Source: Rhodococcus sp. (in: high G+C Gram-positive bacteria)
Lineage (GTDB): Bacteria; Actinomycetota; Actinomycetes; Mycobacteriales; Mycobacteriaceae
Direction: 5' to 3'
DNA: 64,000 nucleotides
Assembly (NCBI GenBank): GCA_004211695.1
Contig: SEEV01000001.1
Span: forward strand, 1-64,000
Below, piece by piece: positions 5,137-64,000 of this stretch. The position numbers and the translations under genes are program-made. The notes under the pieces are model-generated. The model did not search any database and was not told the DNA's origin. It saw only the letters and a program-made list of their open reading frames with translations. Within the stretch, counting starts at the first letter, position 1. Each line of letters begins with the position of its first letter.

Positions 5137-5226
5137 CTGTCAACAGTAGACTGATATCAGAAGCATTCGGGAAAGGGCGTAGTCGATATGTCGGCCGACG
5201 GCAATGTCGAAGTACACTGTCAACAG
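5137..5226. promoter_or_regulatory. Two CTGTCAACAG operator motifs between SDR and GntR-1
   Basis: The identical decamer CTGTCAACAG occurs at 5137-5146 and 5217-5226 in the divergent SDR/GntR-1 interval. The same element recurs near 9.4, 23.9, 30.3 and 39.15 kb, always near promoters of catabolic genes. FCD-type GntR proteins typically bind short inverted repeats of this size, so autoregulation by the adjacent GntR is the natural inference. Confidence 0.6.
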
Positions 5227-43166: not shown

Positions 43167-44094
43167 TGACGAGAACCTCCGGTTGTGTTGTGGCTTGTCT
43201 AAGGCCCACAAACAGCCGGAGGTTCTCGTGCAAACATAATGATGCCCTCTACCACATTCCAGGCAGAGTGCTGATCGTCGAGCGGTAACCCCGAGGGCTG
43301 GTCAAGGCCACGTCGCGGTGGCCATGGGCATTCGCGCAACGCCGGCTCGCGTCAGAGCCGAGACGGAAGAAGGTCATCGAACTACGAAGGGTCGAGCGGC
43401 GCGTCAGGACTGGAGCGGTCCCGAACTCGGCCTCGCTGCCCGCACCGTCAACCGGATCCTGCGTCGACACCGGGTGCCGTACCGGCCCGAGTGTGACCGA
43501 TCAAGGCCTCGAAGGTCACTGTGGTGCGCTACGAATGCGACCGGCCCGGCGGACTGGTCCACATGGACAATCGTGAAGCTGGGCCGGGTCACCGCCGGCG
43601 GCGGGTGGCGTGCTCACAGACGCACCGGCACCGTCCGTGACCGCGCTATATGCCTCGGGTTCGACTACGTTCACTCCCTGGTCGGTGGCCACTCCCGGCT
43701 GGCGTACTCGGAAGTCCCCGGCGACGAGAAGGGGTCTGCGTGCGCCGGGTTCCTCGCCCACGCGGCCGATTTCGTCCGGGCACGCGGGATCGACCTGGCC
43801 GAACGGTTCATGACCCGCATCGCTTGGCCCACAAGTACTCGTTGCGCGAACTCTGCGCGGAGCTCCGAATCACGCAGAAGTTCATCAGCCCCTTGCCCCT
43901 GGCAGATCGGGAAGGTCGAACGACTCACCCAGACTCTGCAATCCGAGTGGCCGATCGGCAGGTGTTCGCCACGATCGACGAGCGGGCCGTCCTTACCCAT
44001 GGCTCGACCATTACAACACTCGACGTCGCCACACAGCGCATTCGAAGGCTTCGCACCGATCAGCCGACTGCAACCAACCTGATGGCTGAGTGCA
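43167..44094 (+). mobile_element. IS481-family element, copy 2 (decayed)
   Basis: It starts TGACGAGAACC and ends GGCTGAGTGCA, matching the ends of copy 1 (33611-34580) in the opposite orientation. The subterminal inverted pair GAGAACCTCCGGTTG / CAGCCGGAGGTTCTC is also shared. The right end lies 1-2 nt from the stop codon of the enoyl-CoA hydratase gene. No target duplication was recognised. Confidence 0.75.
43222..44082 (+). pseudogene. IS481-type transposase pseudogene (copy 2)
   Basis: Pieces of the copy-1 transposase recur: GRVLIVER near the start, SGPELGLAARTVNRILRRHR, LGFDYVHSLVGGHSRLAYSE, GDEKGSACAGFL, KVERLTQTLQSEWPIG and the end ISRLQPT. In-frame stops near the start and frameshifts between pieces (for example after ECDRS and after AERFMTR) leave no complete frame. 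It is inactive. Confidence 0.75.
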
Positions 44095-45875: not shown

Positions 45876-46850
45876 ATGGTGTCAACGAAGGCGGAGGTCG
45901 CTGAAGGCGAGCTCGAACGCATCAATGACGAAATCAGTGGGTTGAGCCTGCTCGCGGGCTGGACCGACCGGCCCGGCGGGCCGTCGATGTGGTCCGAACC
46001 GCGGGGTGTGTTCGAGCCGGGAGCGTGGCGGTATGCGCAGGCGCGTGAACTCCTCGAACGATCCGCGCCGCTGCTGACGATGGAACAGACCGAGAGGCGC
46101 AACCTCATCTTGGTCAATCCCTCTGCGGCAAGTAACTACGCCACGGTTCGGACTCAGGTTCTGGCGTACCAGATGATTCTCCCTGGTGAGCACGCTCGGA
46201 CACATCGTCATTCCCCGCATGCCGGCCGATTGGTTCTCGATGTCGACCCCGGCGCTTACACCGTGGTCAATGGGATGAAGATCCCGATGACGTCAGGCGA
46301 TGTGGTGTTGACCCCGAGCTGGCACTGGCACGGCCACGGGCACGACGGGAACGAGGCGGCCTTTTGGATCGACTTCCTCGACGTTCCCCTGGTGCAGCTG
46401 CTGGATCCGATGTTCTTCGAGCCCTACCCGGACGGGTTCCAGGCTCCCTCGTCGACGGCCGGCGACCCCGAGTCGTTGATCTTCCGGTGGGTCGATACCG
46501 TGGCCCGACTGGACGCTGCCGCGCCCGATCCGGACGGAATCTACGGGCGCCGGATCGAGTTGGGCTCGCCAGCTCTTCCGACGATCGGATTGTCGATGCA
46601 GCGCCTCGAGTCCGGATTCGTGTCCACACCGTTCAGATCCACTGCCAGCCACCAATACTGTGTGGTCGAAGGTTCGGGCGTCACCGTCGTCGACGGCCGC
46701 GAGGTCGAGTGGGCCCGCGGTGACGTCATCGCCGTCCCGAGCTGGACAACTCACTCCCACAGAGCGCACTCCGAGGCGACTCTTTTTGCCATAAATGACG
46801 AACCCCTGCAACGCTATTGCGGGTACATGAGATCGGAGATTGTTCGATGA
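45876..46850 (+). CDS. Gentisate 1,2-dioxygenase-like bicupin
   Basis: A 324-residue double-cupin protein. The first cupin holds the metal-site His residues in GEHARTHRHSPHAGRLVLD (about residues 105-123). GDVVLTPSWHWHGHGHDGNE is the second cupin motif. A C-terminal cupin (YCVVEGSGVTVVDGREVEWA; VPSWTTHSHRA) follows. The arrangement matches Fe(II) ring-cleavage dioxygenases for gentisate, 1-hydroxy-2-naphthoate or salicylate. ATGA coupling to the next FAH-family gene strongly suggests a gentisate-type route. It is divergent from the PrpB-like gene. Confidence 0.9.
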   Translation: MVSTKAEVAEGELERINDEISGLSLLAGWTDRPGGPSMWSEPRGVFEPGAWRYAQARELLERSAPLLTMEQTERRNLILVNPSAASNYATVRTQVLAYQMILPGEHARTHRHSPHAGRLVLDVDPGAYTVVNGMKIPMTSGDVVLTPSWHWHGHGHDGNEAAFWIDFLDVPLVQLLDPMFFEPYPDGFQAPSSTAGDPESLIFRWVDTVARLDAAAPDPDGIYGRRIELGSPALPTIGLSMQRLESGFVSTPFRSTASHQYCVVEGSGVTVVDGREVEWARGDVIAVPSWTTHSHRAHSEATLFAINDEPLQRYCGYMRSEIVR

Positions 46851-47728
46851 AGCTTGCCAGTTTCAACCATGGGCGGGTGGGTGTGGTCGAGGGTGATGGC
46901 ATCGTTGATGTCACCGACCTCGTGCCCGGGGGACTCGGTCCCTCATGGCCATCGACGGCGATGCCCCGAGCTCTCGCCGACCTCGACGCTCTCCTGCAAG
47001 AATTTGCCGGCAAGAGGGACCAGCTCCCGCGGCTGTCACTGAGCGAGGTTGCGTTACAGGCTCCGGTTCCACGGCCCGGACAGTTGATCGCACTGCCTGC
47101 AAACTATGACGATCACATCACCGAGATGACCTCGCCGAACCGGGCCGACCGGAACGGATTCTTTGCTCTGGCGCCGTCCTCGATCAGCGGGCCGGCCGAT
47201 CCCATTGTCTTGCCAGACCTGCCCGGCTACACGATCGACCATGAATGCGAGCTCGCAGTCATCATCGGGAAGCCGGCTCGACATGTGCGACCGGAAGACG
47301 CGTTCGACCACATTGCCGGTTATGCCTGCTTGGTCGATGTCACTGTCCGCGGACCGCAGGAACGAGCAATGAGAAAGTCGTTCCCCAGTTTCACGCCGCT
47401 CGGCCCTTACCTCGTGACATCCGACGAGGTAGGCAACCCCGACGAACTCGGATTGAGCCTGTCAGTGAATGGAGAAATGCGGCACGACGGAAACACGCGC
47501 GACCTGATCGTCGGTATTGCCGACGGTATCGCGATGATTTCATCGGTGATCCCGCTCGAACCGGGCGACGTCATCGCGACCGGTACCCCCGCGGGCGTGG
47601 GCCCGCTGGCCCCGGGCGACGAGGTGAAGATCGCGGTCGAGCGCGTCGGCGACATGACGCTTCAGGTCGTGGCCGGAACCGGGGGCTACAACATCGCTTA
47701 CCAAAATCGCAAGGTCAGCACCGGCTAG
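46847..47728 (+). CDS. Fumarylacetoacetate hydrolase family protein
   Basis: A 293-residue FAH-superfamily hydrolase. Metal ligands lie in IDHECELAVIIGK (HxExE) and the Asp in CLVDVTVRGPQE. KSFPSFTPLGPYLVTSDEVG and VIATGTPAGVGPLAPGDEV are the usual C-terminal motifs. Family members hydrolyse fumarylpyruvate or maleylpyruvate made by gentisate dioxygenase. Its ATG overlaps the cupin stop, so coupling to ring cleavage is nearly certain. A strong terminator follows at 47735. Confidence 0.94.
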   Translation: MKLASFNHGRVGVVEGDGIVDVTDLVPGGLGPSWPSTAMPRALADLDALLQEFAGKRDQLPRLSLSEVALQAPVPRPGQLIALPANYDDHITEMTSPNRADRNGFFALAPSSISGPADPIVLPDLPGYTIDHECELAVIIGKPARHVRPEDAFDHIAGYACLVDVTVRGPQERAMRKSFPSFTPLGPYLVTSDEVGNPDELGLSLSVNGEMRHDGNTRDLIVGIADGIAMISSVIPLEPGDVIATGTPAGVGPLAPGDEVKIAVERVGDMTLQVVAGTGGYNIAYQNRKVSTG

Positions 47729-47810: not shown

Positions 47811-48602
47811 TCAGCTGCCGAGCCACGGAGAATTGGCGAACCCATCCTCCTCCAGCTGCGCGGCGACTGCTGCTAATCCCTGGTGGTAGTCCGAGATGCG
47901 CTCGTCCACGAAACGGGTGGTGGGACCGGCCAAGGAGATGCTCGCGATCACGGCATGGGCGTGATTGCGGACGGGAACAGCAATGACCGATAAGCCATCC
48001 TCGCGTTCACCATGCGTGAGCGCGTACCCGAGGTCCTCGGCCTCGTCACGCCACTTGGCCAAGGTCTCCGCGCCATCGTCCAGGCCCTTTGCTCGGGCGG
48101 CCACCCGCCGCAACAGGCTCGGCGACGCCCCGGAGAGCAGCACCCGCGCCGGAGCCCCGGCCCATAGCGGCTGCTCGCTACCGACTCGCGCGACGTGCCG
48201 CAACGCCTGGGTGCCCTGTTCGGCGGCGATGCACACCCGGTGGATGTCATGGCGCACATAGATACTCACCGTCTCGCCGGACTTGTCCGCCAGCTCACGC
48301 ATCGCCTGGCGTGTAGTGATCGGAATCTGCCACGCGTTGTTCGCCATCGCTCCCCACCGCAAGAGGGAGGGACCGGCGATGTACCGGTTGTTCTCCGTGG
48401 CCCAGAGCAAACCTGCCCCCTCGAGCGTGTCGAGCAACCGCAGCACCGTGGTTCGCGGCAGACCGGTTTGCTCGACCGCCTCTTTCGTGGTCAGCGAGGG
48501 ACTGCACTCACTGAGCAACGACACGATCTCCAGGGCGCGGCGGGCGCTGCGGACACCCCCGCTGCCCTCGGTTGCCTCATCGGGGGCGGACTTGGCGTTC
48601 AT
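47811..48602 (-). CDS. IclR family transcriptional regulator
   Basis: A 263-residue IclR protein. The winged helix reads RRALEIVSLLSECSPSLTTK then TTVLRLLDTLEGAGLL. The effector domain shows VCIAAEQGTQALRHVARVGS, PLWAGAPARVLLSG and GERE-DGLSVIAVPVR. ATG 48602 follows GAGGAC; an in-frame start at 48653 is less likely. It is divergent from the PrpF-like gene, and two inverted repeats in the shared interval are natural targets. The ligand is probably an aromatic or dicarboxylic acid of the downstream pathway. Confidence 0.93.
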   Translation of the reverse strand: MNAKSAPDEATEGSGGVRSARRALEIVSLLSECSPSLTTKEAVEQTGLPRTTVLRLLDTLEGAGLLWATENNRYIAGPSLLRWGAMANNAWQIPITTRQAMRELADKSGETVSIYVRHDIHRVCIAAEQGTQALRHVARVGSEQPLWAGAPARVLLSGASPSLLRRVAARAKGLDDGAETLAKWRDEAEDLGYALTHGEREDGLSVIAVPVRNHAHAVIASISLAGPTTRFVDERISDYHQGLAAVAAQLEEDGFANSPWLGS

Positions 48603-48681
48603 CTGCGTCCTCTTCTCCTGCACGTCGCGAACAACTCCGTCGAATCTTGACACACACGCGAGCCGAATCTACGCTCAGCCC

Positions 48682-51536: not shown

Positions 51537-52372
51537 CCCCGGAGATATTCGCCGACGACACCGGGTTCATCGAGGGGCCGGTCTGGACCGGATCCACCCT
51601 GCACTTCGTCTCGATCAGCCGAAGTCTGGTGTACGAACTCGACGGTAAAACCGGTGATGTCGTCGGCGAAGTACGCGTTGGCGGCGGCCCGAACGGCCTG
51701 ACCCTCGGACAGGACGGACTCTACGTCGCGCAGAACGGCGGCATCTTCGGTGCACCGGAGAACGCCCGGCCCGGCCTGCAGCGCGTCGACGAACAAGGTG
51801 TCTCCTACGTCGGTGACGCCGCCTTCGTGGCACCCAATGATCTCTGTTTCGGGCCCGACGGGCGTCTGTATGTCAGCGATCCGATCGCAGAACGCGGTCT
51901 GCACGAACTGCTTCCCGGCAACGTCTACAGCGTCGATCCGAAGACCGGACACACAGCTGTCGCGCTCGCGGACCTACCCTTTCCCAACGGCCTCGCCGTG
52001 GACGCCACCGGCCAATATCTTTATCTTGCATTATCTTTCGCGCAGACCATCGAACGATATCGATTCACCGAATCAGGTCTGGCGCACGACGGTACTGCGT
52101 GCACAATCTCGGCAGGGCGTCCCGATGGATTCGCGCTCGATACCGATGGAAACCTGTGGATTTGCGTACCGGGCAGTGGGGGAGTGGAGGTGTACTCGCC
52201 CGACGGCGAACGGCTGGATCGGATCGACTGCGGGGACGGTGCTCTGACCACGAACTGCTGCTTCGGTGGGGCCGACATGTCCACCCTCTTCATTACTGCC
52301 GCCGGCCGCGGCGCTGTTCTCGCGGTCGACACCGGTGCCATCGGGCTTCCGTTGTTGCCGTTCCGGGGCTGA
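51530..52372 (+). CDS. SMP-30/gluconolactonase-like protein
   Basis: A 280-residue six-bladed beta-propeller of the SMP-30/gluconolaconase/LRE family. FIEGPVWTG, GGGPNGLTLGQDG, APNDLCFGPDGRLYVSD, PFPNGLAVDATGQYLYLALS and GRPDGFALDTDGNLW carry the metal-ligand Glu, Asn and Asp positions of the family. It would hydrolyse a lactone, here possibly a product after ring hydroxylation. Start overlaps the monooxygenase stop by 7 nt. A decayed copy of its 3' half lies at 59405. Confidence 0.9.
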   Translation: MLTPEIFADDTGFIEGPVWTGSTLHFVSISRSLVYELDGKTGDVVGEVRVGGGPNGLTLGQDGLYVAQNGGIFGAPENARPGLQRVDEQGVSYVGDAAFVAPNDLCFGPDGRLYVSDPIAERGLHELLPGNVYSVDPKTGHTAVALADLPFPNGLAVDATGQYLYLALSFAQTIERYRFTESGLAHDGTACTISAGRPDGFALDTDGNLWICVPGSGGVEVYSPDGERLDRIDCGDGALTTNCCFGGADMSTLFITAAGRGAVLAVDTGAIGLPLLPFRG

Positions 52373-52395
52373 AGAACGTCGAAAGGACTGGAGAA

Positions 52396-52704
52396 ATGAC
52401 CGGTTTGGTAATCGTCGAAATGCAGGTAGTCGATCCGGAGAAGATGGCGGCCTACCGCGAGCTGGCCGTTGCCGCCATCGAGAAGTACCGTGGCCGATTC
52501 CTGGTCCGCGGTGGACCCGCGGAGTGCGTGGAAGGCGAACGGCCCCACAATGAGTCGGTCGTGGTCCTCGCGTTCCCGGATATGGGCACGGCACGGGACT
52601 GGTACGCCTCACCTGAGTACTCGAAGGCCCTGGCAGTGAGCTCACAGGCTATGACCCGCCGGGTCACCCTCGTCGAGGGTGTACCCGCACCAGAAGTGGC
52701 CTGA
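52396..52704 (+). CDS. DUF1330 family protein
   Basis: A 102-residue ferredoxin-like-fold protein: LVIVEMQVVDPEKMAAYREL, GRFLVRGG, NESVVVLAFPDMGTARDWY and YSKALAVSSQAMTRRVTLVEG match DUF1330. Members are small and possibly bind or process aromatic compounds; function is unknown. GGAGAA precedes the ATG. It follows SMP-30 by 23 nt. A copy with an internal deletion lies at about 59685. Confidence 0.88.
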   Translation: MTGLVIVEMQVVDPEKMAAYRELAVAAIEKYRGRFLVRGGPAECVEGERPHNESVVVLAFPDMGTARDWYASPEYSKALAVSSQAMTRRVTLVEGVPAPEVA

Positions 52705-52732
52705 ATCATCTTCCCTGCGGGGGTTGACGTGG

Positions 52733-52770
52733 ATCACACTCTACGGCACTATTCAAATGGTAGGACCTTG
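52733..52770 (+). promoter_or_regulatory. Promoter with ATGGTAGGACC operator half (copy 1)
   Basis: TTGACG followed by a near TATTCA element lies upstream of ATGGTAGGACC (52757-52767). The whole block is repeated at 59773-59816 and the core matches the perfect palindrome at 61451-61471. Probable promoter and operator for the downstream remnant and acyl-CoA dehydrogenase. Confidence 0.55.
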
Positions 52771-52805
52771 GTCCCACCCGCCCGGGTCCTGGAAGACTTC
52801 CGGCG

Positions 52806-53060
52806 GTGAACTTCTTCCGGTCTGAACTTCAGGTAGGAAACGGAGTGACCCATGGTCGCGGTGACGAACGACGTGAGCAAGCACGGGTCATCACCGGATC
52901 CGCAACCTCGGCAAAGGTCTCGATCTCGTTCGGCGGTGTTGAACCGAACTTCGGTGCCGGCGAGTCGGCCGACAAAGCTCCCGCCCTTCGAGCGCGGCTA
53001 CTTCGACCCACGCTTGACCATTCCGACGCAGTGTTTCTCGACGTGGCCCAGAACTACTAG
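52806..53060 (+). pseudogene. Decayed gene X (copy 1)
   Basis: Open reading starts NFFRSELQVGNGVTHGRGDE as in copy 2 (59826 onward), then diverges into another frame. DNA similarity to copy 2 continues to the shared end QNYY near 53060. Neither copy is intact, so the parent protein is not recognisable. The rest of 52705-53322 holds the promoter block and no further gene. Confidence 0.6.
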
Positions 53061-53322
53061 AGCTCGGACAGGGGCACACCCTCCTCGATTTCTCGATGAG
53101 TTCGGCAAAGCGTTCGTCCTGGTCAGTTTCGGTGGTTCTGCCGGCGCCGATCGCACGGTGACCGATCGGCCGCGATCGATCACCAGATATCGGATCTACC
53201 GACAATCCACAGCCCGCGACGACACGACAACCCACAGTCCGCAAGACAAGGAGCCAAATTGTGAGAAGGACGATCTGGCGACTGAGCAACGAGTGCGCTC
53301 ACGTCGCAGAAGGACCGAACAC

Positions 53323-54480
53323 ATGAAGCGCAATATCCTGACTCCCGAGCATGAAGAATTTCGGGCGTCCGTGCGCGAATTCATCGCCAAGGAGGTCGAA
53401 CCCCAATATCGTGACTGGGAACTGCGAGGGCACCCGCCCCGGGACTTCTACCGTCGCCTCGGAGAAGTCGGCATCCTTGGCATGTGGGTGCCGGAGGAGT
53501 ATGGCGGTGGCGGAGCCACGAGCTACAGCTACGCAGCGGTACTGATGGAGGAAATAGCGGCAGCTGGCGTGGGATTCGGCTGTGCAATACCGCATTCCAC
53601 GCTGATCCTGGCCTACCTGACCGCATTCGCCACTGAGGACCAGAAAGCACGGTGGCTTCCCGGCGTCGCCTCCGGCGACATCGTCCTGGCAATCGCGATG
53701 ACCGAGCCGGGCACCGGCTCCGATCTCGCGAACGTCTCCACCTCCGCCCGACTCGCGGATGATGGCTCGCACTATGTTCTCGACGGTGCCAAGACGTTCA
53801 TCAGCGGCGGCAGCGTCGCCGATCTTGTACTGGTCGTGTGCCGCACGGCTCCCCGCGATCCGGACAACCGGCGAGCGGGACTGTCCATTCTCGCTGTCGA
53901 GACGTCGTCGACAGGTTTCTCGGTCGGTCGCCGTCTGGAGAAGATCGGACTGCACGCCAACGATCTAGTCGAGCTCACATTCGACGATGTCGTGGTTCCC
54001 GCCGCGAACCGACTCGGCGACGAGGGGCGCGCGTTCGAATACCTCAGCCACAACCTGGCGCAAGAACGATTGTCGATCGCACTGACGGCGAGCGCTGCTG
54101 CTCAAGCCGCGATTCGGCACACGGCCGAATACGTCACGGACCGCACAGTGTTCGGGAATCCGCTGTCAAGCTTTCAAAACACCAAGTTCTCTTTGGCAGG
54201 CAGCGCAGCCGTGACGCAGGCGATGGTGACCATGACCGACCGCGCTCTCGAACTGTACGATGCGAAGGAACTGACGCCGGCCGACGCAGCGATGACCAAA
54301 TTATTCTGCACCGAACAAGCGGGATCCGTCATCGACGCATGTTTACAACTGCACGGCGGATACGGCTACATCATCGAATACCCGATCGCTCGGCTGTACG
54401 CCGATATCCGGGTCGCGCGTATATACGGCGGAACGAGTGAGGTGATGAAACTGATCATCGCCAAGTCGCTGGGCTTGTGA
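53323..54480 (+). CDS. Acyl-CoA dehydrogenase
   Basis: A 385-residue acyl-CoA dehydrogenase. ILTPEHEEFRASVREFIAKE, AMTEPGTGSDLANVSTSARL (FAD site), QERLSIALTA with Glu at the position used as base in LCAD and isovaleryl-CoA dehydrogenases, and IYGGTSEVMKLIIAKSLGL at the end. An in-frame start at 52852 is rejected since it runs through the decayed gene X; AAGGA precedes ATG 53323. It lies downstream of the monooxygenase/SMP-30 series and would act on a CoA ester of the product acid. Confidence 0.93.
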   Translation: MKRNILTPEHEEFRASVREFIAKEVEPQYRDWELRGHPPRDFYRRLGEVGILGMWVPEEYGGGGATSYSYAAVLMEEIAAAGVGFGCAIPHSTLILAYLTAFATEDQKARWLPGVASGDIVLAIAMTEPGTGSDLANVSTSARLADDGSHYVLDGAKTFISGGSVADLVLVVCRTAPRDPDNRRAGLSILAVETSSTGFSVGRRLEKIGLHANDLVELTFDDVVVPAANRLGDEGRAFEYLSHNLAQERLSIALTASAAAQAAIRHTAEYVTDRTVFGNPLSSFQNTKFSLAGSAAVTQAMVTMTDRALELYDAKELTPADAAMTKLFCTEQAGSVIDACLQLHGGYGYIIEYPIARLYADIRVARIYGGTSEVMKLIIAKSLGL

Positions 54481-54811: not shown

Positions 54812-56137
54812 ATGCCTGAAAACGTAAAGCTTCATCCTGGCCGGCAACTTTCGGCTGGCTCGGTTGGTCATTTTGTCGAATTGTTCGATTTCCTCACGTA
54901 TTCGTTTCTTGCCATCTACTTCGCCGACCAGTTTTTCCCGTCGTCCGACGAGTCCAGCCTGGTCCCACTCCTGAGTGCCTTCGGCGTGTTCGCGATCGGA
55001 TTCCTGATCCGCCCGATCGCAGGGTTGCTAATTGGGTTGTTTGCTGACCGTTATGGTCGGCGAACAGCTATGACGTGGAGCATTTGGCTCATGGGCCTGG
55101 GCACAGCGCTAATTGCAATCGCGCCAACATATGCGCAAATCGGGGTCGCGGCGCCGATGTTACTCATTTTTGCGCGAATCCTTCAGGGCGTGTCGATGGG
55201 AGGGGAGTTTACAACGGCGGCGGCTTTTCTCGTGGAATCAGCACCGGCGAATCGCCGAGGGTTCTTCGGGAGTTTTCTCTTCGTCAGTTCGAGTCTCGGA
55301 AAATTGGTTGCACTCGGTCTTATTGCAGGGCTGACCGCCATTCTGACCGAGGACCAGATGCGAGAATTTGGCTGGCGGGTCCCCTTCGCTATTGGCGCAT
55401 TGCTCACTTTGGTTGCATGGTGGATCCGCCGGAAGTCTGCCGAAACGCTGGAAGTTGGGTCGCGAACTCCGGGGGAGGGTGTACAACCACCGCCAGGTGT
55501 GTTCGAGGCGGTGCGGAAGTACCCCAAACAGAGTATCCAGGTAGCCGGACTCGCTGTCGGCATCGGAGGACTTCAATACTTCTGGGGGACGTATTTCCCA
55601 GCTTATGCGACTATTGTCACCGGTCTGAATCCGACGCTTCCCATGATTGCAGGATTTATCGGAATCACCGTTTATCTCGTTGTGGGACCGTTCATCGGAA
55701 TTCTGGGAGACCGATTCGGGACCATAAAACTACTCTATTTCTTCGGTATCGCCACGACGATTTCAATGGTGCCGCTTCTCGGTCTCCTCGACCACGGCTT
55801 CATCGGTTTGGTTGCAACGGCAACAATCGGGATGATCCTACTGGCGTTCGGCACCTCGGTTCTCGCGGTGGCGCTTGTTGACCTATTTCCCCAGCGCGTT
55901 CGTGCATCGGGTCTGGGTTTCCCGTGGTCGATCGCGATTGCCCTTGTCGGTGGCACCGTGTCCGTGATCGGGACCGCCTTTGAAAGTTCGGGCCACGGAG
56001 TCATGTTCGCATATTACTTGGCCGCACTATCGGCAGTGACGCTAGTCACAACGATATCGATCCACCGCAGCAATTATAAAATCGTGGAAGTCGCCGGGAG
56101 TCCGGATCGGAGCCGCAGTTCGCTGCCTCAAAGTTGA
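54812..56137 (+). CDS. MFS transporter, MHS/alpha-ketoglutarate permease-like
   Basis: A 441-residue 12-helix MFS protein. HFVELFDFLTYSFLAIYFAD, GFLIRPIAGLLIGLFADRYG and RILQGVSMGGEFTTAAAFLV match the MHS family of carboxylate:H+ symporters. Its codons are less GC-biased than its neighbours, suggesting separate acquisition. It precedes a CaiB-type transferase and follows an acyl-CoA dehydrogenase, so it may import the pathway acid. Confidence 0.92.
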   Translation: MPENVKLHPGRQLSAGSVGHFVELFDFLTYSFLAIYFADQFFPSSDESSLVPLLSAFGVFAIGFLIRPIAGLLIGLFADRYGRRTAMTWSIWLMGLGTALIAIAPTYAQIGVAAPMLLIFARILQGVSMGGEFTTAAAFLVESAPANRRGFFGSFLFVSSSLGKLVALGLIAGLTAILTEDQMREFGWRVPFAIGALLTLVAWWIRRKSAETLEVGSRTPGEGVQPPPGVFEAVRKYPKQSIQVAGLAVGIGGLQYFWGTYFPAYATIVTGLNPTLPMIAGFIGITVYLVVGPFIGILGDRFGTIKLLYFFGIATTISMVPLLGLLDHGFIGLVATATIGMILLAFGTSVLAVALVDLFPQRVRASGLGFPWSIAIALVGGTVSVIGTAFESSGHGVMFAYYLAALSAVTLVTTISIHRSNYKIVEVAGSPDRSRSSLPQS

Positions 56138-56254
56138 CAATAGCCGGGATCCGCCCGACAACGGCTGTCCTTGACGAAGCGACCGATTTCCTGCCCGCCA
56201 CACCGACGTTGCCCCGGACGGGCACGCTCACCGTTTTGCGATTTTAGGAGAGTC

Positions 56255-57451
56255 ATGACCACACAGCGTGCGTTGATTGGCACACGCGTACTCGATCTGT
56301 CACAGTGGGAATCTGGATCGATGGCTGCGTTGGCCCTGGCATCCATGGGCGCCGATGTGATCAAAATCGAGAGCCCCACTGGGGACTCGTCGCGCGTTGT
56401 CGCGGCCGACACACCGGATGCAGACTCGATCTTCTTCCTCGTCCTCAACACCAACAAGAGGTCGGTCGCCCTCGATCTCAAGTGCGCAGCGGGACGCAGC
56501 ACCCTCGAGCGACTGATCGAGCGGAGCGACGTGCTCATCGAGAACTTCGGTCCCGGCACCATGGAGCGGCTCGGGTTCAGCTACGAGCGGATCCGCGAGC
56601 TCAATCCGAGGATGGTGTTCGCTTCCATCAAGGGATTCGGCCCGGAGAGCGAATACCGTGATTCATTGTGTTTCGATGCGATCGCCCAGTCCATGGGCGG
56701 CTCGGTAGCTTTCACCGGGGACCCAGCTGGGCCACCGATAAAGCCCGGACCGACTTTCGCGGACACGGGCTCCGGTCTCCATCTCGCCATCGCGATCTGC
56801 GGCGCGCTCCTCCAACGACACACCACAGGGGAAGGCCAGCGGGTTGACGTAGCAATGCAGGAGGCGCTGCTGAACTTCTGCCGTGTCTCGATCGCACGCC
56901 ACCAGGTCGAGGGACGACCCGCTCCGCGAGTCGGTAACGGGTCACCGACCGGGTCGGCTGCACCGGTCGGCATGTATCGCTGCAAGGGCGGTGGTCCCAA
57001 TGACTATCTGACGATGTTCACTCCGCGTGATCCCGTAAGTGGAAACCGCCAATGGAAAGCGCTGCTCGATCTGATGGGCCGGAGCGATCTTGTAGACGAT
57101 CCACGATTCGCCACGCCGTTGTCGCGATATAGGCACTGCGCCGAGGTGGATGCAATCGTGTCGGAATGGACTGTGGAACACGACAAGCGGACGGCGTCAG
57201 ACATGCTCAACGAAATCGGCGTGCCGGCGGGCCCGGTGCTCGACACTGGGGACCTGCTCGCTGAGCCGTCGATGTTCAACGGCGGCTTTCTCACCCGGGT
57301 CGAACATCCGACACGGGGAGAGGTCATACTGCCCGGCTGGCCAGTGAGGATGAGCGCATCCCCGAGAGTAGACGTCATGGCACCGCCGTTGCTCGGTCAG
57401 CACACCGACGAAGTCTTGCAGGAGGTGTTGGGGGCCCGGGGCTCTGGGTAA
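56255..57451 (+). CDS. CaiB/BaiF family CoA-transferase
   Basis: A 398-residue class III CoA-transferase: VLDLSQWESGSMAALALASM, GADVIKIESPTGDSSR, NKRSVALDLK and the catalytic Asp in LCFDAIAQSMGG. TTTAGGAGAG precedes ATG 56255. It is closely related to the truncated CaiB gene at 63781 (shared QWE-GSMAA and DSPDADSLFFLV-type stretches) and less so to 17334-18605. It would supply CoA esters to the acyl-CoA dehydrogenase and hydratase of this region. Confidence 0.93.
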   Translation: MTTQRALIGTRVLDLSQWESGSMAALALASMGADVIKIESPTGDSSRVVAADTPDADSIFFLVLNTNKRSVALDLKCAAGRSTLERLIERSDVLIENFGPGTMERLGFSYERIRELNPRMVFASIKGFGPESEYRDSLCFDAIAQSMGGSVAFTGDPAGPPIKPGPTFADTGSGLHLAIAICGALLQRHTTGEGQRVDVAMQEALLNFCRVSIARHQVEGRPAPRVGNGSPTGSAAPVGMYRCKGGGPNDYLTMFTPRDPVSGNRQWKALLDLMGRSDLVDDPRFATPLSRYRHCAEVDAIVSEWTVEHDKRTASDMLNEIGVPAGPVLDTGDLLAEPSMFNGGFLTRVEHPTRGEVILPGWPVRMSASPRVDVMAPPLLGQHTDEVLQEVLGARGSG

Positions 57452-58015
57452 AAGATTTACTCATTGACCGGGGCGAGCACGACGCTTCGTATTGAGTTGA
57501 TCTGGGGCGATTGCTGATGGCATCGCATGCGCCGCGAACGGCAGTCGGTCGCCGGCTCCGATGACCGCCGCCTTAACCCGCAGGGGGTACGAACGAGGAG
57601 ATACTGCGATCTCGACACCGCCGAAACCCAAGGGCTCGAGAACCACCCAGGGTTCCCCGCGCTACCAGGACATCGAGGTCCTCTCCGGCGGTCACGCGAC
57701 CGATCCGCTGCTGGCCCCCACCAGATGCCCGGAGCGTCCTGAGCCTTGTCGGCGGTGGCGACCGTCGGATGTGCGGGCTGCGTGATCGAGAGCGTTCGCG
57801 CAGTTCTGTGGGTCAATCGTGATTGTCGCGCCAGGGCTCTCGGGAGCCGGACAGCGGTCTCTATGGGCAGCCGATGGCGGTTAGGAGGAATTTGTGCGGA
57901 AGAGGGCTAATGGTTCTGGACCAGTGCGTGAAGGGGTGGGCCCCTCAGGGATAACGGAACCAACGCTACGAAGATTACTGATCTGTCGAAGGTAGGACGA
58001 AAAGGAGTGAAGTGC
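57452..58015. other. Interval holding the ECH remnant and promoter of the FAD dehydrogenase
   Basis: Apart from the decayed ECH at 57495-57700, no gene is supported. GGTAGGACG (about 57991-57999) resembles the ATGGTAGGACC core near the downstream start, but it lacks a second arm. Confidence 0.35.
57495..57700 (-). pseudogene. Decayed enoyl-CoA hydratase
   Basis: On the minus strand LEPLGFGGVEIAVSPRS is followed by VKAAVIGAGDRLPFAAHAMP. These correspond to the ECH at 44096-44869 (IEPFGFAGF...; KRGLIGAGDCLPFLAARIP) with the intervening part deleted. No complete frame exists, so the gene is a remnant. It sits opposite to the CaiB gene direction. Confidence 0.55.
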
Positions 58016-59323
58016 GTGGACCTCGAGAGAACTGATTCATTGCGCCACGTCGACGTGGTTGTGCTCGGTGCGGGCATGGCCGGTATGTGTGCGGCGGCGG
58101 CGACTGCAGCAGCAGGAGCTATAACTTTGGTCGTGGAGTCAGCGACGACGATCGGCGGATCGGCCGCGCTATCTCACGGCACAGTGTGGACGGTTCGGGA
58201 CACCGACGTGCTGGCACAGGAGGATCCGGGCAAGTACCAGAAGCACGGCAATTCCGTTGTAGTAGGGTTCGATTCTGCTGTCGCGGAACTCTCCGGTTTT
58301 GGTACCGCGTTGGGTGAGCCTGTCGAATCACGAAGGCGCCGAGCGCAACGTTTCGATCTACCCCTGACGTTTTTGCGTATTGCTCAGAAGGTGCACAGTT
58401 CGGGAGGTGGGATACGTACAGCGTGTGTCGTGGACCAGGTTGCCCCCGGCGAGACCGGATACCGCGTTCGGCTACGCGGCAGTCGCGATGAAATCGAGAC
58501 GTCATCGATCATTGTGGCGACAGGTGGACGTCAAGCAGATCCCTCGGTGCGAGCTGAACTGGCTGGACCTGCGAGCGTGTTGCGGTCCAATGAGCATTCC
58601 GATGGTGGTGGCATTGATCTGGCTTGCTCGCTGGGTGCTGGCATCAACTCTGCCAATCGCGGCTTTTACGGCCATCTCTTCCCCCACGGTGTCGCGCCGT
58701 TGTCCGGGTTCGACTACCGCGCTTTGGCGCTGTACCACAGCACCTACGGCGTGCTCGTCGATCGAAATGGACAAAGGTTCACGGACGAGTCAGCGGGCGA
58801 TCCTCGAAACACGATCGCGCTTGCGGCCCACGGTGGTGACGGTGTGCTGTTGTGGTCACAGGCAACTCAAGAACGCGCCGCCACCGACCCGGGGCCGATT
58901 GACCTCGTGATCGACCGGTGGAGTTATGCGCGCGACCGCGGCGGCCAGGTTGCCCGCGCAGAGTCTCTCGACGAGGCTGCGCGGATCGTACGCGCGTGGG
59001 GCTTTGCCGACCCTGCTGGAGCGTTGACTACATCCAGACTCACGGGCAGCACCGTTTTTCTCGCGCGTGTAGTCCCTGGTGTCACCTATACATACGGCGG
59101 CCTTAACGCCACGTACCAGGGGGAGGTCCTGGATGGGAACGGTGACGTGATTCCGGGTCTGTTCACGGCGGGCGCCGACATGTCAGACATCTATCACGAA
59201 GGATACTGCGGGGGGCTTAGTGCGGCCGCTGTGACCGGAATGACCGCAGGGCGAGCGGCGGCGACATGGGCCCTTGGTGATACCGAACCCGCGGCCAGAT
59301 CGACCATAAAGACCGTGCCATAG
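58016..59323 (+). CDS. FAD-binding dehydrogenase (fumarate reductase/KstD/TcuA-type)
   Basis: A 435-residue flavoprotein with DVVVLGAGMAGMCAAAATAA (dinucleotide motif), VESATTIGGSAALSHG, IIVATGGRQADPS and the C-terminal FAD motif GYCGGLSAAAVTGMTAGRAA. The family includes tricarballylate dehydrogenase, fumarate reductase flavoprotein subunits and ketosteroid dehydrogenases. It is shorter than typical KstD proteins. GTG 58016 is chosen, with AAGGAG 8 nt upstream; GTG 58007 overlaps the ribosome site. It stands alone between the decayed ECH and the duplicated remnant. Substrate unknown. Confidence 0.88.
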   Translation: MDLERTDSLRHVDVVVLGAGMAGMCAAAATAAAGAITLVVESATTIGGSAALSHGTVWTVRDTDVLAQEDPGKYQKHGNSVVVGFDSAVAELSGFGTALGEPVESRRRRAQRFDLPLTFLRIAQKVHSSGGGIRTACVVDQVAPGETGYRVRLRGSRDEIETSSIIVATGGRQADPSVRAELAGPASVLRSNEHSDGGGIDLACSLGAGINSANRGFYGHLFPHGVAPLSGFDYRALALYHSTYGVLVDRNGQRFTDESAGDPRNTIALAAHGGDGVLLWSQATQERAATDPGPIDLVIDRWSYARDRGGQVARAESLDEAARIVRAWGFADPAGALTTSRLTGSTVFLARVVPGVTYTYGGLNATYQGEVLDGNGDVIPGLFTAGADMSDIYHEGYCGGLSAAAVTGMTAGRAAATWALGDTEPAARSTIKTVP

Positions 59324-59404
59324 ACATGGTCGCGGTGGATCGGGCAGTCGTCATGCCAGTCAGAATGCGTCGCGGATCTTCGTGTCCGGTATCGCCCGCA
59401 CAGC

Positions 59405-60120
59405 TCCCGGAATCTGGCCTCGCGCACGACGGTACTACGTGCACCCTCTTGGCGGGGTGCCAGGTGCGCGCGGGATATCGACGAAACCCTCTGGATGTGC
59501 GTACCCGGCAGTGGGAGTGGAGGTGTACTCGCCCAATGCGACCGGCTGGATCGGTTCGACTGTGGGCGGTGCCCTTCGGTGGGGCAGTCATATCTACCCT
59601 CTTCATTACACCGTGGCCGGCCGCGGCGCTGTTCCCGCGGTCGACACCGGCGCCACCGGGTTTCCGTCCGGAAAGGACTGGAGAAATGACCGGCTCTAAC
59701 AGTCGTCGGGACGCAGGGTGTCGATCCGGAGAAAACGGCGTGCCTGGTGCCTGGATCCTCTTCCGCACACGGGTTGACGTGGATCACACTCTACGGCACT
59801 ATCAAATGGTAGGACCTTGGCCCCAACCCATTGGAAGACTTCCGACAGTGAACTTCAACTTCTTCCGGTCTGAACTTCAGGTAGGAAATGGAGTGACACA
59901 TGGTCGTGGCGACGAACGACGTGAGCACGCACGGGTCATCGCCGAGCGGATCCGCAACCTCGGCACCGATCTCGATTTCGATCAGCGGCATTGGACGGAC
60001 CTCCGGCACCAGCCACTCGGCCGACAAAGATCCGCCCTTTCGAATGAAGCTATTTCGACCCCATACTGACCCTTCCGACGCAGTTCGTCGACGTGGCCCA
60101 GAACTACTACCGCGAAGTTG
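59405..60120 (+). pseudogene. Decayed duplicate of SMP-30/DUF1330/gene X
   Basis: About 700 bp here align with 52075-53060. First the 3' half of SMP-30 (GLAHDGTTCT; then frames broken by indels), then the start of DUF1330 (GAAATGACCGG context) with about 235 bp deleted. The TTGACG...ATGGTAGGACC promoter block and the start of gene X follow. Frameshifts and deletions leave no function for the protein parts; the promoter block may still work for the downstream ferredoxin reductase. Confidence 0.75.
59773..59816 (+). promoter_or_regulatory. Promoter with ATGGTAGGACC operator half (copy 2)
   Basis: TTGACGTGGATCACACTC continues to the operator core ATGGTAGGACC (59806-59816), nearly identical to 52733-52767. 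It could drive the ferredoxin reductase operon across the decayed gene X. Confidence 0.5.
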
Positions 60121-60223
60121 GCGGAGTCCTGCAATACGAACGACGGTGGCGGTCGACTAGGTCTACGACCCGAGATTCGCCGAAGCGGTACCGACACCCA
60201 TTCCGTGAAAGGAACAAGACACC

Positions 60224-61414
60224 ATGATTGATGGCGTCGTCATCATTGGCGCCTCCGTTGCGGGAGTTGGACTGGCAGACGAGCTGAGGGCACTCGGCTA
60301 CTCGAAGTCGATCACCCTCCTCGACGCGCAGGATCAGCTTCCCTATGACCGTCCCCCCCTGTCCAAGGGTGCCCTGACCGGTGAGTCGAGTATGGAGGAC
60401 ATCACCTTTCATCCGGCCGATCACTACGTTGACGCGGACATAGATCTTCGACTGGGCACCCGCGCAGTTCGCCTCGATGCCCGGCAGCGGACCGTCGTAC
60501 TCGAAACCGGCGAGGAAATCCGCGCCGAGGCGGTCGTTGTCGCCACCGGCGCTCGTGCCCGGAGGTGGCCGCAAACGCGCACCGCATGCCATGTCGTGCG
60601 TGAGTTTCAGGACGCCCTCGACCTGCGTGATGCCCTCGACACCGCCCGTCGCGTAGCCGTGGTGGGCGGGGGTTTCATCGGGGCCGAGGTGGCATCGAGC
60701 GCAACGACCCTTGGCCTCGAGGTGGTGGTCGTCGAGGCCGCCCCCCGGCCGTTCGAGAACCGAGTCGGCGCCGAAGTAGCGGAGCTGCTTCTCGATCTGC
60801 ACAACAATGCAGGCGTGAAAGTCATTGCAGGAGTTGCCGTCGAGGAGATCGACGGCGGGGTTCTAAGACTGGCTGACGGCCATTCTCGCATCGACGCGGA
60901 TGTCGTGGTGGTCGGACTGGGAGCGGTCCCTGTCGATGAGTGGCTCGACGACTCCGGGCTGACCGTCGCGGGCGGAGTAGTGTGCGACGATCGCGGTCGC
61001 ACCGGTCACCCTGGTGTGTACGCAGCTGGGGACGTGGCGGCTTGGCCTGACCCGCACACCGGGAAGGTGCGCCGGCACGAGCACTGGACCAGCGCACGAG
61101 AGCAGGCCCGTATCGTCGCGAGCGATATCGCGGGCGCGGAGGACGGCCCGAAGTGGTCCGATGCAGTCGATTACGTGTGGTCCGACCAGTACGGCGGACG
61201 CATCCAGCTCCTTGGCTCTCCGCACTTGTCCGATGATGTCCGCATCCTCGATCACGACCCGTCCACCGGGCGTTTCCTTGCCCTCTATGGTGCGCGAGGA
61301 CGTCTCGTCGGCGCGGTCGGGTGCCAGGCGGCGGTGAAGGTGTTAAGGCAGCGCAAGGGGATTTCCCAGGCGATCTCCCTCGACGAGGCCGTTGCGGCCG
61401 CTCAACCAAAGTAG
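60224..61414 (+). CDS. FAD-dependent ferredoxin reductase (putidaredoxin reductase-type)
   Basis: A 396-residue NAD(P)H:ferredoxin oxidoreductase. FAD motif VVIIGASVAGVGLADELRAL, LPYDRPPLSKGAL, NAD motif VAVVGGGFIGAEVASSA and GVYAAGDVAAWPDP. It passes electrons from NAD(P)H to a small ferredoxin and on to a P450. AAAGGAAC precedes ATG 60224. With the SDR, P450 and ferredoxin genes that follow, it makes a three-component class I P450 system. Confidence 0.94.
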   Translation: MIDGVVIIGASVAGVGLADELRALGYSKSITLLDAQDQLPYDRPPLSKGALTGESSMEDITFHPADHYVDADIDLRLGTRAVRLDARQRTVVLETGEEIRAEAVVVATGARARRWPQTRTACHVVREFQDALDLRDALDTARRVAVVGGGFIGAEVASSATTLGLEVVVVEAAPRPFENRVGAEVAELLLDLHNNAGVKVIAGVAVEEIDGGVLRLADGHSRIDADVVVVGLGAVPVDEWLDDSGLTVAGGVVCDDRGRTGHPGVYAAGDVAAWPDPHTGKVRRHEHWTSAREQARIVASDIAGAEDGPKWSDAVDYVWSDQYGGRIQLLGSPHLSDDVRILDHDPSTGRFLALYGARGRLVGAVGCQAAVKVLRQRKGISQAISLDEAVAAAQPK

Positions 61415-61430
61415 CTTCCTGAGTGTTGAC

Positions 61431-61471
61431 GGAACTGGGAGCAAGCGGCTTAGAATGGTAGGACCATTCTA
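61431..61471 (+). promoter_or_regulatory. Promoter with perfect 9-bp inverted-repeat operator
   Basis: TTGACG lies at the start. The arms TAGAATGGT (61451-61459) and ACCATTCTA (61463-61471) are perfect complements around AGG. The -10-like TAGAAT (spacer 18-19 bp) is inside the left arm, so a bound regulator would block the promoter of the SDR-P450-ferredoxin genes. The core matches copies at 52757 and 59806. Confidence 0.7.
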
Positions 61472-61488
61472 CGTATTAAGGAGATAGG

Positions 61489-62301
61489 GTGGCTAAGCAG
61501 TTCAGCCTTACGGGCCGCTCAGTGCTCGTGACAGGCGGAGGAAGCGGAATCGGCGCCGCCATCGCCGAGCGCGCCGCTCACGAGGGTGCGCGCGTGGCGA
61601 TCGCCGACCGTGACGGGGACGCGGCCTCGCGCGTTTCCGCACGACTCCCCGGCCAGGGGCATCTCGGTTTCGATCTCGATGTCACCGACGCCGATGCAGT
61701 CGACGCCGTAGTTGACGAAATTCAAACGCGATTCGGCCAGATCGATACCGTGTTCTCCAACGCGGGGGTCAACCGCGGACGCGGAATCGGTGACGTTGCC
61801 GATTGGACCGCCTCTTTCGGGGTGCATGTACTCGCGCATATCTATCTGGCCCAGAAGCTGATCCCGGAGATGGCGTCCCACGAGGGCGGATACTTCGTCA
61901 TCACGGCGTCGGCGGCAGGGCTTCTCAGCAATCTCGAATCAGCTCCCTACACCGCGACCAAACACGCCGCGGTGGCACTGGCGGAGTGGCTCGCCATTAC
62001 CTACGGCGATCACGGCGTGCACGTCGCGTGCGTATGCCCCCAAGGTGTCCGCACGGGAATGACGAGGGGGAGGGAGTCGGCTCCCACGGGTTCATCGCAC
62101 GCTCTCGAACCCGAGAAAGTCGTGGACACCATCTGGGACTCCCTTGGACGCAACGAGTTCCTCGTTCTTCCCCATCCCGAGGTCGCAGCATACGAGCGGC
62201 GGCGAACAGAGGACCGCGAGCGGTGGCTGGCCGGCATGCGACGCATGCGAGAACGAATGACCCGCAATCTCAATGAAGACGTAGTGAAGGAGGCATTGTG
62301 A
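61489..62301 (+). CDS. SDR family oxidoreductase
   Basis: A 270-residue classical SDR: VLVTGGGSGIGAAIAERAA, NAGVNRGRG, Ser in ITASAAG and YTATKHA supplying Tyr and Lys. GTG 61489 follows AAGGAGA. The stop overlaps the next P450 start (GTGA). It would oxidise the alcohol made by the P450. Unlike the SDR at 12287 its catalytic motifs are intact. Confidence 0.93.
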   Translation: MAKQFSLTGRSVLVTGGGSGIGAAIAERAAHEGARVAIADRDGDAASRVSARLPGQGHLGFDLDVTDADAVDAVVDEIQTRFGQIDTVFSNAGVNRGRGIGDVADWTASFGVHVLAHIYLAQKLIPEMASHEGGYFVITASAAGLLSNLESAPYTATKHAAVALAEWLAITYGDHGVHVACVCPQGVRTGMTRGRESAPTGSSHALEPEKVVDTIWDSLGRNEFLVLPHPEVAAYERRRTEDRERWLAGMRRMRERMTRNLNEDVVKEAL

Positions 62302-63569: not shown

Positions 63570-63767
63570 ATGCACGTCACCATCGAACAAAACCGCTGCA
63601 TCGGGGCGGGTCAGTGCGTTCTCAATGCCCCCGAGGTGTTCGATCAGCGCGAGGACGACGGCATCGTCGAACTCCTCGACGAAACGCCCGCCGAAGACCT
63701 GCACAAAGATACTCGACTCGCCGCGCGCCTGTGCCCGGCCGACGCAATCTTCGTCCACGAAAAGTAA
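63570..63767 (+). CDS. P450 redox ferredoxin, 3Fe-4S type
   Basis: A 65-residue ferredoxin. Cys10 and Cys16 lie in RCIGAGQC, and the last Cys55 in LCPADAIF; the missing fourth Cys is as in 3Fe-4S (or 4Fe-4S with one other ligand) P450 ferredoxins of actinobacteria. It is acidic and soluble. It would carry electrons from the reductase at 60224 to the P450 at 62298. Confidence 0.94.
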   Translation: MHVTIEQNRCIGAGQCVLNAPEVFDQREDDGIVELLDETPAEDLHKDTRLAARLCPADAIFVHEK

Positions 63768-63780
63768 CTGGGAGTACTCC

Positions 63781-64000
63781 GTGACCACCACACCGAACAG
63801 TGCTCCACCACTGCAACCGCACGCCCTCACCGGCATCAAGGTTCTCGACCTCACCCAGTGGGAAGCCGGCTCCATGGCAGCTACCTCATTGGCTTTCCTG
63901 GGCGCCGACGTGTACAAGGTCGAGCACCCCACCCGAGGCGACTCCGCGCGCATCGCGTCCGCGGACAGCCCCGATGCGGACTCGCTCTTCTTCCTCGTGC
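63781..64000 (+). CDS. CaiB/BaiF family CoA-transferase, 5' part
   Basis: The first 73 residues of a CoA-transferase: GIKVLDLTQWEAGSMAATSL and FLGADVYKVEHPTRGDSARI. It closely matches the N-terminus of the transferase at 56255. GTG 63781 has GGAG 6 nt upstream. The gene runs out of the window, so the catalytic Asp is not visible. Confidence 0.9.
   Translation, partial: MTTTPNSAPPLQPHALTGIKVLDLTQWEAGSMAATSLAFLGADVYKVEHPTRGDSARIASADSPDADSLFFLV

Follow-up and report, generated by a model that had tools for sequence, protein, structure and literature searches.

Which protein, if any, recognizes the palindrome in front of a cytochrome P450 operon of Rhodococcus sp.? The palindrome lies near the end of the window (the whole stretch of 64,000 nucleotides analyzed here) and covers a predicted promoter. 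The initial annotation had described a perfect inverted repeat with 9-bp arms, TAGAATGGT and ACCATTCTA, around AGG at 61451-61471, and exactly this was found. Its core is AATGGT-N3-ACCATT, with TGGT-AGG-ACCA at 61456-61466, and the site is called operator 1 below. The proposal, made from the sequence, that a regulatory protein would bind over the SDR-P450-ferredoxin promoter is well supported: the site recurs, it is conserved in relatives, and a regulator that fits it was found.

The probable operator 1 and its copies in the gene cluster

Operator 1 (61451..61471, no strand assigned) lies over the predicted -10 region of an SDR-P450-ferredoxin-CoA-transferase operon. The promoter-like pair on the + strand (61426..61456) consists of TTGACG at 61426-61431 and TAGAAT at 61451-61456. 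The latter is located inside the left arm, as had been claimed, and agrees with TATAAT at five of six positions, with a long spacing of 19 bp from TTGACG. The pair was not listed by a consensus promoter scan in which spacings of 16-18 bp were allowed; one weak site on the opposite strand was listed instead.

Operator 1 is preceded by a ferredoxin reductase gene (Pyr_redox_2, Reductase_C; 60224..61414, + strand) and followed on the same strand by the genes for an SDR oxidoreductase (61489..62301), a cytochrome P450 (62298..63536), a ferredoxin (Fer4_15; 63570..63767) and a CoA-transferase of family III (CaiB type), the first part of which lies at 63781..64000 and which continues beyond the window to contig position 65037. 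An acyl-CoA dehydrogenase gene is found further upstream (53323..54480, +; the start at 53323 was chosen within a longer mechanical ORF, 52852-54480), as are genes for an MFS transporter (54812-56137, +), a second CoA-transferase (56255-57451, +; start taken as 56255) and a FAD_binding_2 oxidoreductase (58007-59323, +), the last three on one strand over 54812..59323. The two CoA-transferase family III paralogues of the cluster are 65% identical. Another part of the window (45876-47728 / 47811-48653(-)) encodes a cupin protein with two matched stretches and, after it, a fumarylacetoacetate-hydrolase-type protein; an IclR regulator is encoded on the opposite strand. We take this arrangement to resemble a gentisate-type branch. 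Among the titles and abstract starts of the literature matches listed, no description of an SDR-P450-ferredoxin-CoA-transferase cluster was found. A match to the P450 occurs in 80 of 394 genomes of the class and in 152 plasmid records, all of the latter below 60% identity, and among 396 genomes of the phylum matches at E 1e-40 or better were found in the own genome only.

No further match to TAGAATGGT-AGG-ACCATTCTA with up to three mismatches was found elsewhere in the window, and none arose in 100 shuffles. The sequence AATGGTNNNACCATT has a single occurrence in the assembly, which is operator 1. The 67.7-kb contig has six perfect repeats of this geometry (9-bp arms, 3-nt spacer), compared with 0.55 expected per 64 kb from 20 Markov sequences. 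Because there are six such repeats, symmetry by itself is weak to modest evidence, and significance from symmetry alone was rejected.

The word ATGGTAGGACC recurs at 52757 and 59806, as had been noted; its third occurrence, at 61455, is operator 1. With one mismatch allowed, 0.74 matches were expected, and three were reached in one of 100 shuffles. All three occurrences are thus present, but the copies at 52757 and 59806 are dependent since both are inside one duplicated segment; three independent recurrences were therefore rejected, two of them representing one duplication. Both places had been described as promoter-like; the -10 hexamers proposed for operators 2 and 3 match at three of six positions. 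Operator 2 (AATGGTAGGACCTT, 52752..52774, no strand assigned) lies behind TTGACG-17-CACTAT, with 0.55 kb between it and the acyl-CoA dehydrogenase gene downstream. Operator 3 (59801..59823, no strand assigned) belongs to the duplicated promoter block, and the ferredoxin reductase gene follows it at a distance of 0.40 kb.

The duplication is partial and decayed (59326-60223 compared with 51900-53060). In the copy at 59.3-60.2 kb the DUF1330 gene is mostly missing and an SMP-30 fragment contains frame-breaking gaps. The promoter-operator blocks of operators 3 and 2, the ends of which were picked after viewing the alignment, are equal at 53 of 54 aligned bases, whereas the flanking duplicated DNA matches less well (219/252 and 230/262 bases). 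Because of this difference, we read the copied promoter as having been kept to drive the ferredoxin reductase gene at 60224.

A genome scan for matching sites, which the initial annotation had recommended, covered 8,466,826 bases (8.47 Mb) on 1043 contigs of an assembly that is 74% complete, so that sites elsewhere may be missed. Exact AATGGTAGGACC was found at four places only, all on the own contig (C824) and within 12.3 kb, starting at 52756, 59805, 61454 and 65041(-). With one mismatch allowed, the word was no more frequent in the assembly (16 matches) than its reversed control (15), so that the information lies in the exact, clustered copies alone. The raw count of TGGTNNNACCA, 73 per assembly strand, was below the 141 of the reversed control and is uninformative. 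For AATGGTNNNACC, 24 matches were found at 23 assembly places, compared with two in the reversed control. AGG is carried at four of these places, all on the operator contig, and at none of the 19 others. The excess over the control points to a half-site shared by several FCD/GntR regulators of the genome, with different centres in their sites.

A GntR regulator beyond the window

The statement that no regulator gene lies beside the three sites is true inside the window; on the contig, however, a GntR gene starts 1,089 bp past the window end. The apparent lack of a regulator arose because the window was cut at 64000 while the contig runs to 67732. The gene (contig 65089-65865) encodes 258 aa and is located 3.6 kb downstream of operator 1. 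It is preceded by operator 4 (contig 65034-65056), which adjoins the stop of the CoA-transferase gene; the fourth AATGGTAGGACC copy (65041-65052(-)), about 1 kb past the window end, ends 36 bp before the GntR gene start. Operators 2-4 are imperfect palindromes in which the core is kept.

The protein has an N-terminal GntR winged helix (PF00392, 68.4 bits; cut-off 27) and a C-terminal FCD domain (PF07729, 49.2 bits; cut-off 24.3). A structure model (pLDDT 80.7, pTM 0.62) contains seven C-terminal helices within residues 92-242 and a short one at 245-250. Seven is the number described for the FadR group, and six that for the VanR group (PMC7797058). The nearest solved relatives by sequence are LldR, PdhR and NanR, and the best structural match is LldR (CGL2915, Corynebacterium glutamicum, PDB 2di3; E 7.5e-9, TM 0.52 and 0.58, rmsd 7.2, 26% identity), which is also the best PDB sequence match and has the same combination of GntR and FCD domains. 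LldR differs in that it acts on lactate genes and carries FH where the Rhodococcus protein has FY. Assignment as an LldR equivalog is not given, with 76.8 bits for NF007741 and a cut-off of 311, and the protein also stayed under the cut-offs of the curated NanR, PdhR and FadR models.

In an alignment of the GntR protein with 17 relatives, Arg49, Arg59, Arg63 and Gly80, 83 and 84 are invariant. Arg45, Arg49 and Gly66 are named for FadR and Atu1419 (PMC7797058), and from the aligned motif we read the invariant Arg and Gly residues as probable counterparts of DNA-contacting residues of FadR. The three metal-coordinating histidines that are common in FCD proteins were not found: FY replaces FH, and an invariant Arg209 characterizes the subfamily of the protein where, as judged by eye, metal-type FCD proteins carry a histidine. 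Since Escherichia coli FadR is also described without these histidines (PMC7674646), they do not define FCD proteins.

In operators of the FadR subfamily a TKGT box and an ACMA box are reported, with GT and AC typically separated by 3 nt (PMC4494728). Operator 1 has both boxes at this spacing. The motif given for LldR is TGGTNNNACCA (PMC9600882), and TNGTNNNACNA is quoted in PMC2230225. E. coli FadR itself belongs to the same subfamily, with GT and AC 3 nt apart (PMC4494728), but is 18% identical, responds to acyl-CoA and regulates fatty acid genes. Atu1419 of Agrobacterium fabrum is likewise an FCD repressor of a catabolic cluster that is autoregulated and has its palindrome over the -10 (PMC7797058), features which on the Rhodococcus side are predicted. 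It differs in belonging to the VanR group, with six helices, a 10-bp palindrome ATGTATACAT and bound zinc (PMC7797058), whereas the Rhodococcus protein has seven modelled helices and the N3 spacing of its operators.

Closer members of the subfamily are a paralogue of the same genome (C73:1890-2585) and regulators at three Nocardia loci (L049, L051, L053), which have AGTCAATGGTTGAACCA upstream of the gene; the site of the paralogue is AATGGTTGAACC. The centres of these sites are TTG or, on the other strand, TCA instead of AGG, and SDR-P450-ferredoxin genes were not found beside the Nocardia regulators or in the 1.5-kb flanks of the paralogue.

Conservation of the site in relatives of the regulator

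In public genomes 32 loci were found, of which L039-L055 are close relatives with 37-50% identity. The footprint set combined the public loci with relatives from further genomes and with 3 of the 20 plasmid records that contained a regulator match. After removal of 12 near-duplicate loci, 24 close (≥110 bits) and 36 distant (<104 bits) relatives were counted, the close group including several same-locus copies (L040, L041) and the own-genome paralogue. TGGT-N3-ACCA occurs exactly upstream of 6/24 close and 3/36 distant relatives. Within one mismatch it was found upstream of 19/24 close and 6/36 distant relatives, indicating conservation of the site, and was absent upstream of the remaining 5 of the 24. 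CAATGGT occurs upstream of 16/24 close compared with 1/36 distant relatives. Among 2,816 palindromes tested, TGGT-N3 was joint first for exact matches together with GGTT-N1, the latter being largely these very sites in their TGGTTGAACCA form. Two GC-rich palindromes also reached 19/24 within one mismatch, but are more frequent in the distant set, with 17/36 and 9/36.

A symmetric matrix with the consensus TCAATGGTnnnACCATTGA was constructed from 20 author-chosen sites before relatives outside the contig. Seven of these were exact, among them L074, which nearly duplicates L049, and the other 13 had one mismatch. The second site of L046, both sites of L055, the L048 site (identical to that of L047) and all matches below 110 bits were omitted. 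The sites were picked by the TGGT-N3-ACCA core, so that independent evidence comes from the flanks alone. The top score on the contig, 19.57, was obtained at 61450-61472, which is operator 1, and operators 2, 3 and 4 ranked third, fourth and fifth with 13.75, 13.61 and 13.25. The second rank (43994-44016, score 16.52) was rejected as an operator; it falls within an ORF that gave no Pfam match. When 100 Markov sequences as long as the contig were scored, the best score averaged 13.47 and reached 21.47 at maximum, above the 19.57 of operator 1. No single matrix score is therefore proof, and operators 2-4 are singly unremarkable, as on average 0.47 Markov positions reach 13.61. The weight of the scan lies rather in the four predicted operators being among the top five positions of the contig.

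An exact TGGTNNNACCA at 61178-61188 was also rejected as an operator; it lies inside the ferredoxin reductase gene, and similar flanks are found in other such genes. The sequence TGGTCNGACCA arises there by coding for Trp-Ser-Asp-Gln, in the window (61178-61188) as well as in L046, L050, L104, L105 and L108-L112. In a comparison of 29 P450 loci outside the own genome (L102-L130; identity up to 52%, flanks up to 1.5 kb), exact TGGTNNNACCA was absent from 21 within these flanks, was present at seven together with ferredoxin reductase coding flanks and occurred once at L129. This coding match is a false-positive trap for scans of FadR-type sites.

A counterpart of the arrangement was found in two near-identical loci that count as one case, L047 of Roseomonas populi and L048 of Pararoseomonas indoligenes. 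The SDR, P450, ferredoxin and CoA-transferase of this operon are 54, 74, 66 and 62% identical to those of the window, and a ferredoxin reductase and an SMP-30 protein are 49 and 51% identical. The operon (L047 2341-7876, and L048) also has an enoyl-CoA hydratase gene. It is divergent from a GntR gene with 42% identity, and the AGG-centred site GTTCATTGGTAGGACCATTAGTC / ATTGGTAGGACCATTA lies between the two, a placement that depends on starting the SDR gene at a GTG chosen behind GGAGGA; if its longest mechanical ORF were taken, the site would fall inside the gene. Read towards the SDR gene, TTGACC is found 17 bp before TAATGG (two of six -10 matches) inside the site, and the operator therefore again lies over the predicted -10 region. 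The similarity suggests that the operon may have been transferred between the phyla of the actinobacterium and the alphaproteobacterial Roseomonas and Pararoseomonas.

In the Actinomadura loci L039, L040 and L041, two GntR genes of the subfamily lie side by side. Sites such as TCTCAATGGTAGGACCAAGGAGG (L039) or TAACAATGGTCCAACCAAAGGAG are found there kilobases from these genes, and TCTCAATGGTAGGACCAAGGAGG lies directly before a CoA-transferase gene.

Proposed mechanism and alternative explanations

Taken together, the inverted repeat is very probably an operator of the FadR-type (FCD) GntR regulator encoded at contig 65089-65865, and this regulator is likely a repressor. A GntR dimer would bind both halves of AATGGT-N3-ACCATT and, sitting over the -10 region, would deny RNA polymerase access to the SDR-P450-ferredoxin-CoA-transferase operon. 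Binding of a pathway metabolite, probably an organic acid or a CoA thioester, to the FCD domain would release the protein. Such an effector is plausible because two CoA-transferases and an acyl-CoA dehydrogenase are encoded in the cluster. At operators 2, 3 and 4 the same regulator would act on the acyl-CoA dehydrogenase gene, the ferredoxin reductase gene and its own gene, the last by self-repression (autoregulation).

Blocking is proposed from the site positions, since TAGAAT lies within operator 1 and the weakly predicted CACTAT precedes operators 2 and 3. The same protein could instead be an activator or a dual regulator, as positions of GntR1/2 sites fit activator function for ptsG (PMC2230225) and CitO is reported to induce its target genes (PMC4746285); with the three site positions fitting a block, however, this is improbable. 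Another FCD/GntR protein of the genome might also bind, for instance the 40%-identical C73 paralogue, or several might, with the neighbouring regulator as one of them. The assembly contains 72 GntR-domain matches and AATGGTNNNACC at 19 further places, and cross-binding is possible because the paralogue has a similar site, AGTCAATGGTTGAACCAGACAGC, upstream with the same half-sites and another centre. The exact AGG-centred word, however, was found before no other gene cluster in the 74%-complete assembly, and in Roseomonas an AGG site again lies between a GntR relative and the same operon, which makes binding by such other proteins quite unlikely. The FCD/GntR genes at 5188 and 23123 in the window were rejected as binders, as neither has TGGTNNNACCA in the 300 bp upstream.

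That the repeat arose by chance, or is a functionless remnant of duplication, would agree with the six perfect repeats of the same geometry on the contig, with two of the other copies being duplicates of each other and with a best Markov score above that of operator 1. With a copy of the word before the GntR gene, the exact word confined to the cluster, the site conserved in a second phylum and the first matrix rank, however, this explanation is highly improbable. The perfect arms near the SDR start codon would also suit an RNA hairpin, either a terminator or a translational control element in the SDR leader. Such a function is hardly credible, as no terminator-like site was found in 61300-61600, operators 2-4 show the core without the full symmetry, and the Roseomonas site, although near the SDR gene start, is also upstream of the divergent GntR gene.

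Beyond the assignment of operator 1 to the FadR-type regulator, a broader reading can be offered tentatively and is itself rather unlikely to hold in full. Regulator, AGG-centred operator and SDR-P450-ferredoxin-CoA-transferase operon might together constitute a portable unit, common to the actinobacterium and Roseomonas, that serves an oxidative catabolic pathway not yet described. The central triplet (AGG versus TTG) might keep the regulator distinct from close paralogues that share the cell with it, and its FCD domain might sense a CoA thioester without metal. In the cluster, the promoter-operator block might have been copied and then retained as the genes copied with it decayed, which would have brought the ferredoxin reductase under this switch.

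As predicted here, the four operators and their local FadR-type regulator of the GntR family would add a new member to a well-known class of switches. Its footprint across phyla is clear, and the general understanding of GntR regulation is unchanged by it. An orphan palindrome has become a defined, predicted regulator-operator set of four sites. The effector would provide a handle on the P450/CoA-transferase catabolic pathway, and Roseomonas offers a ready cross-phylum comparison.
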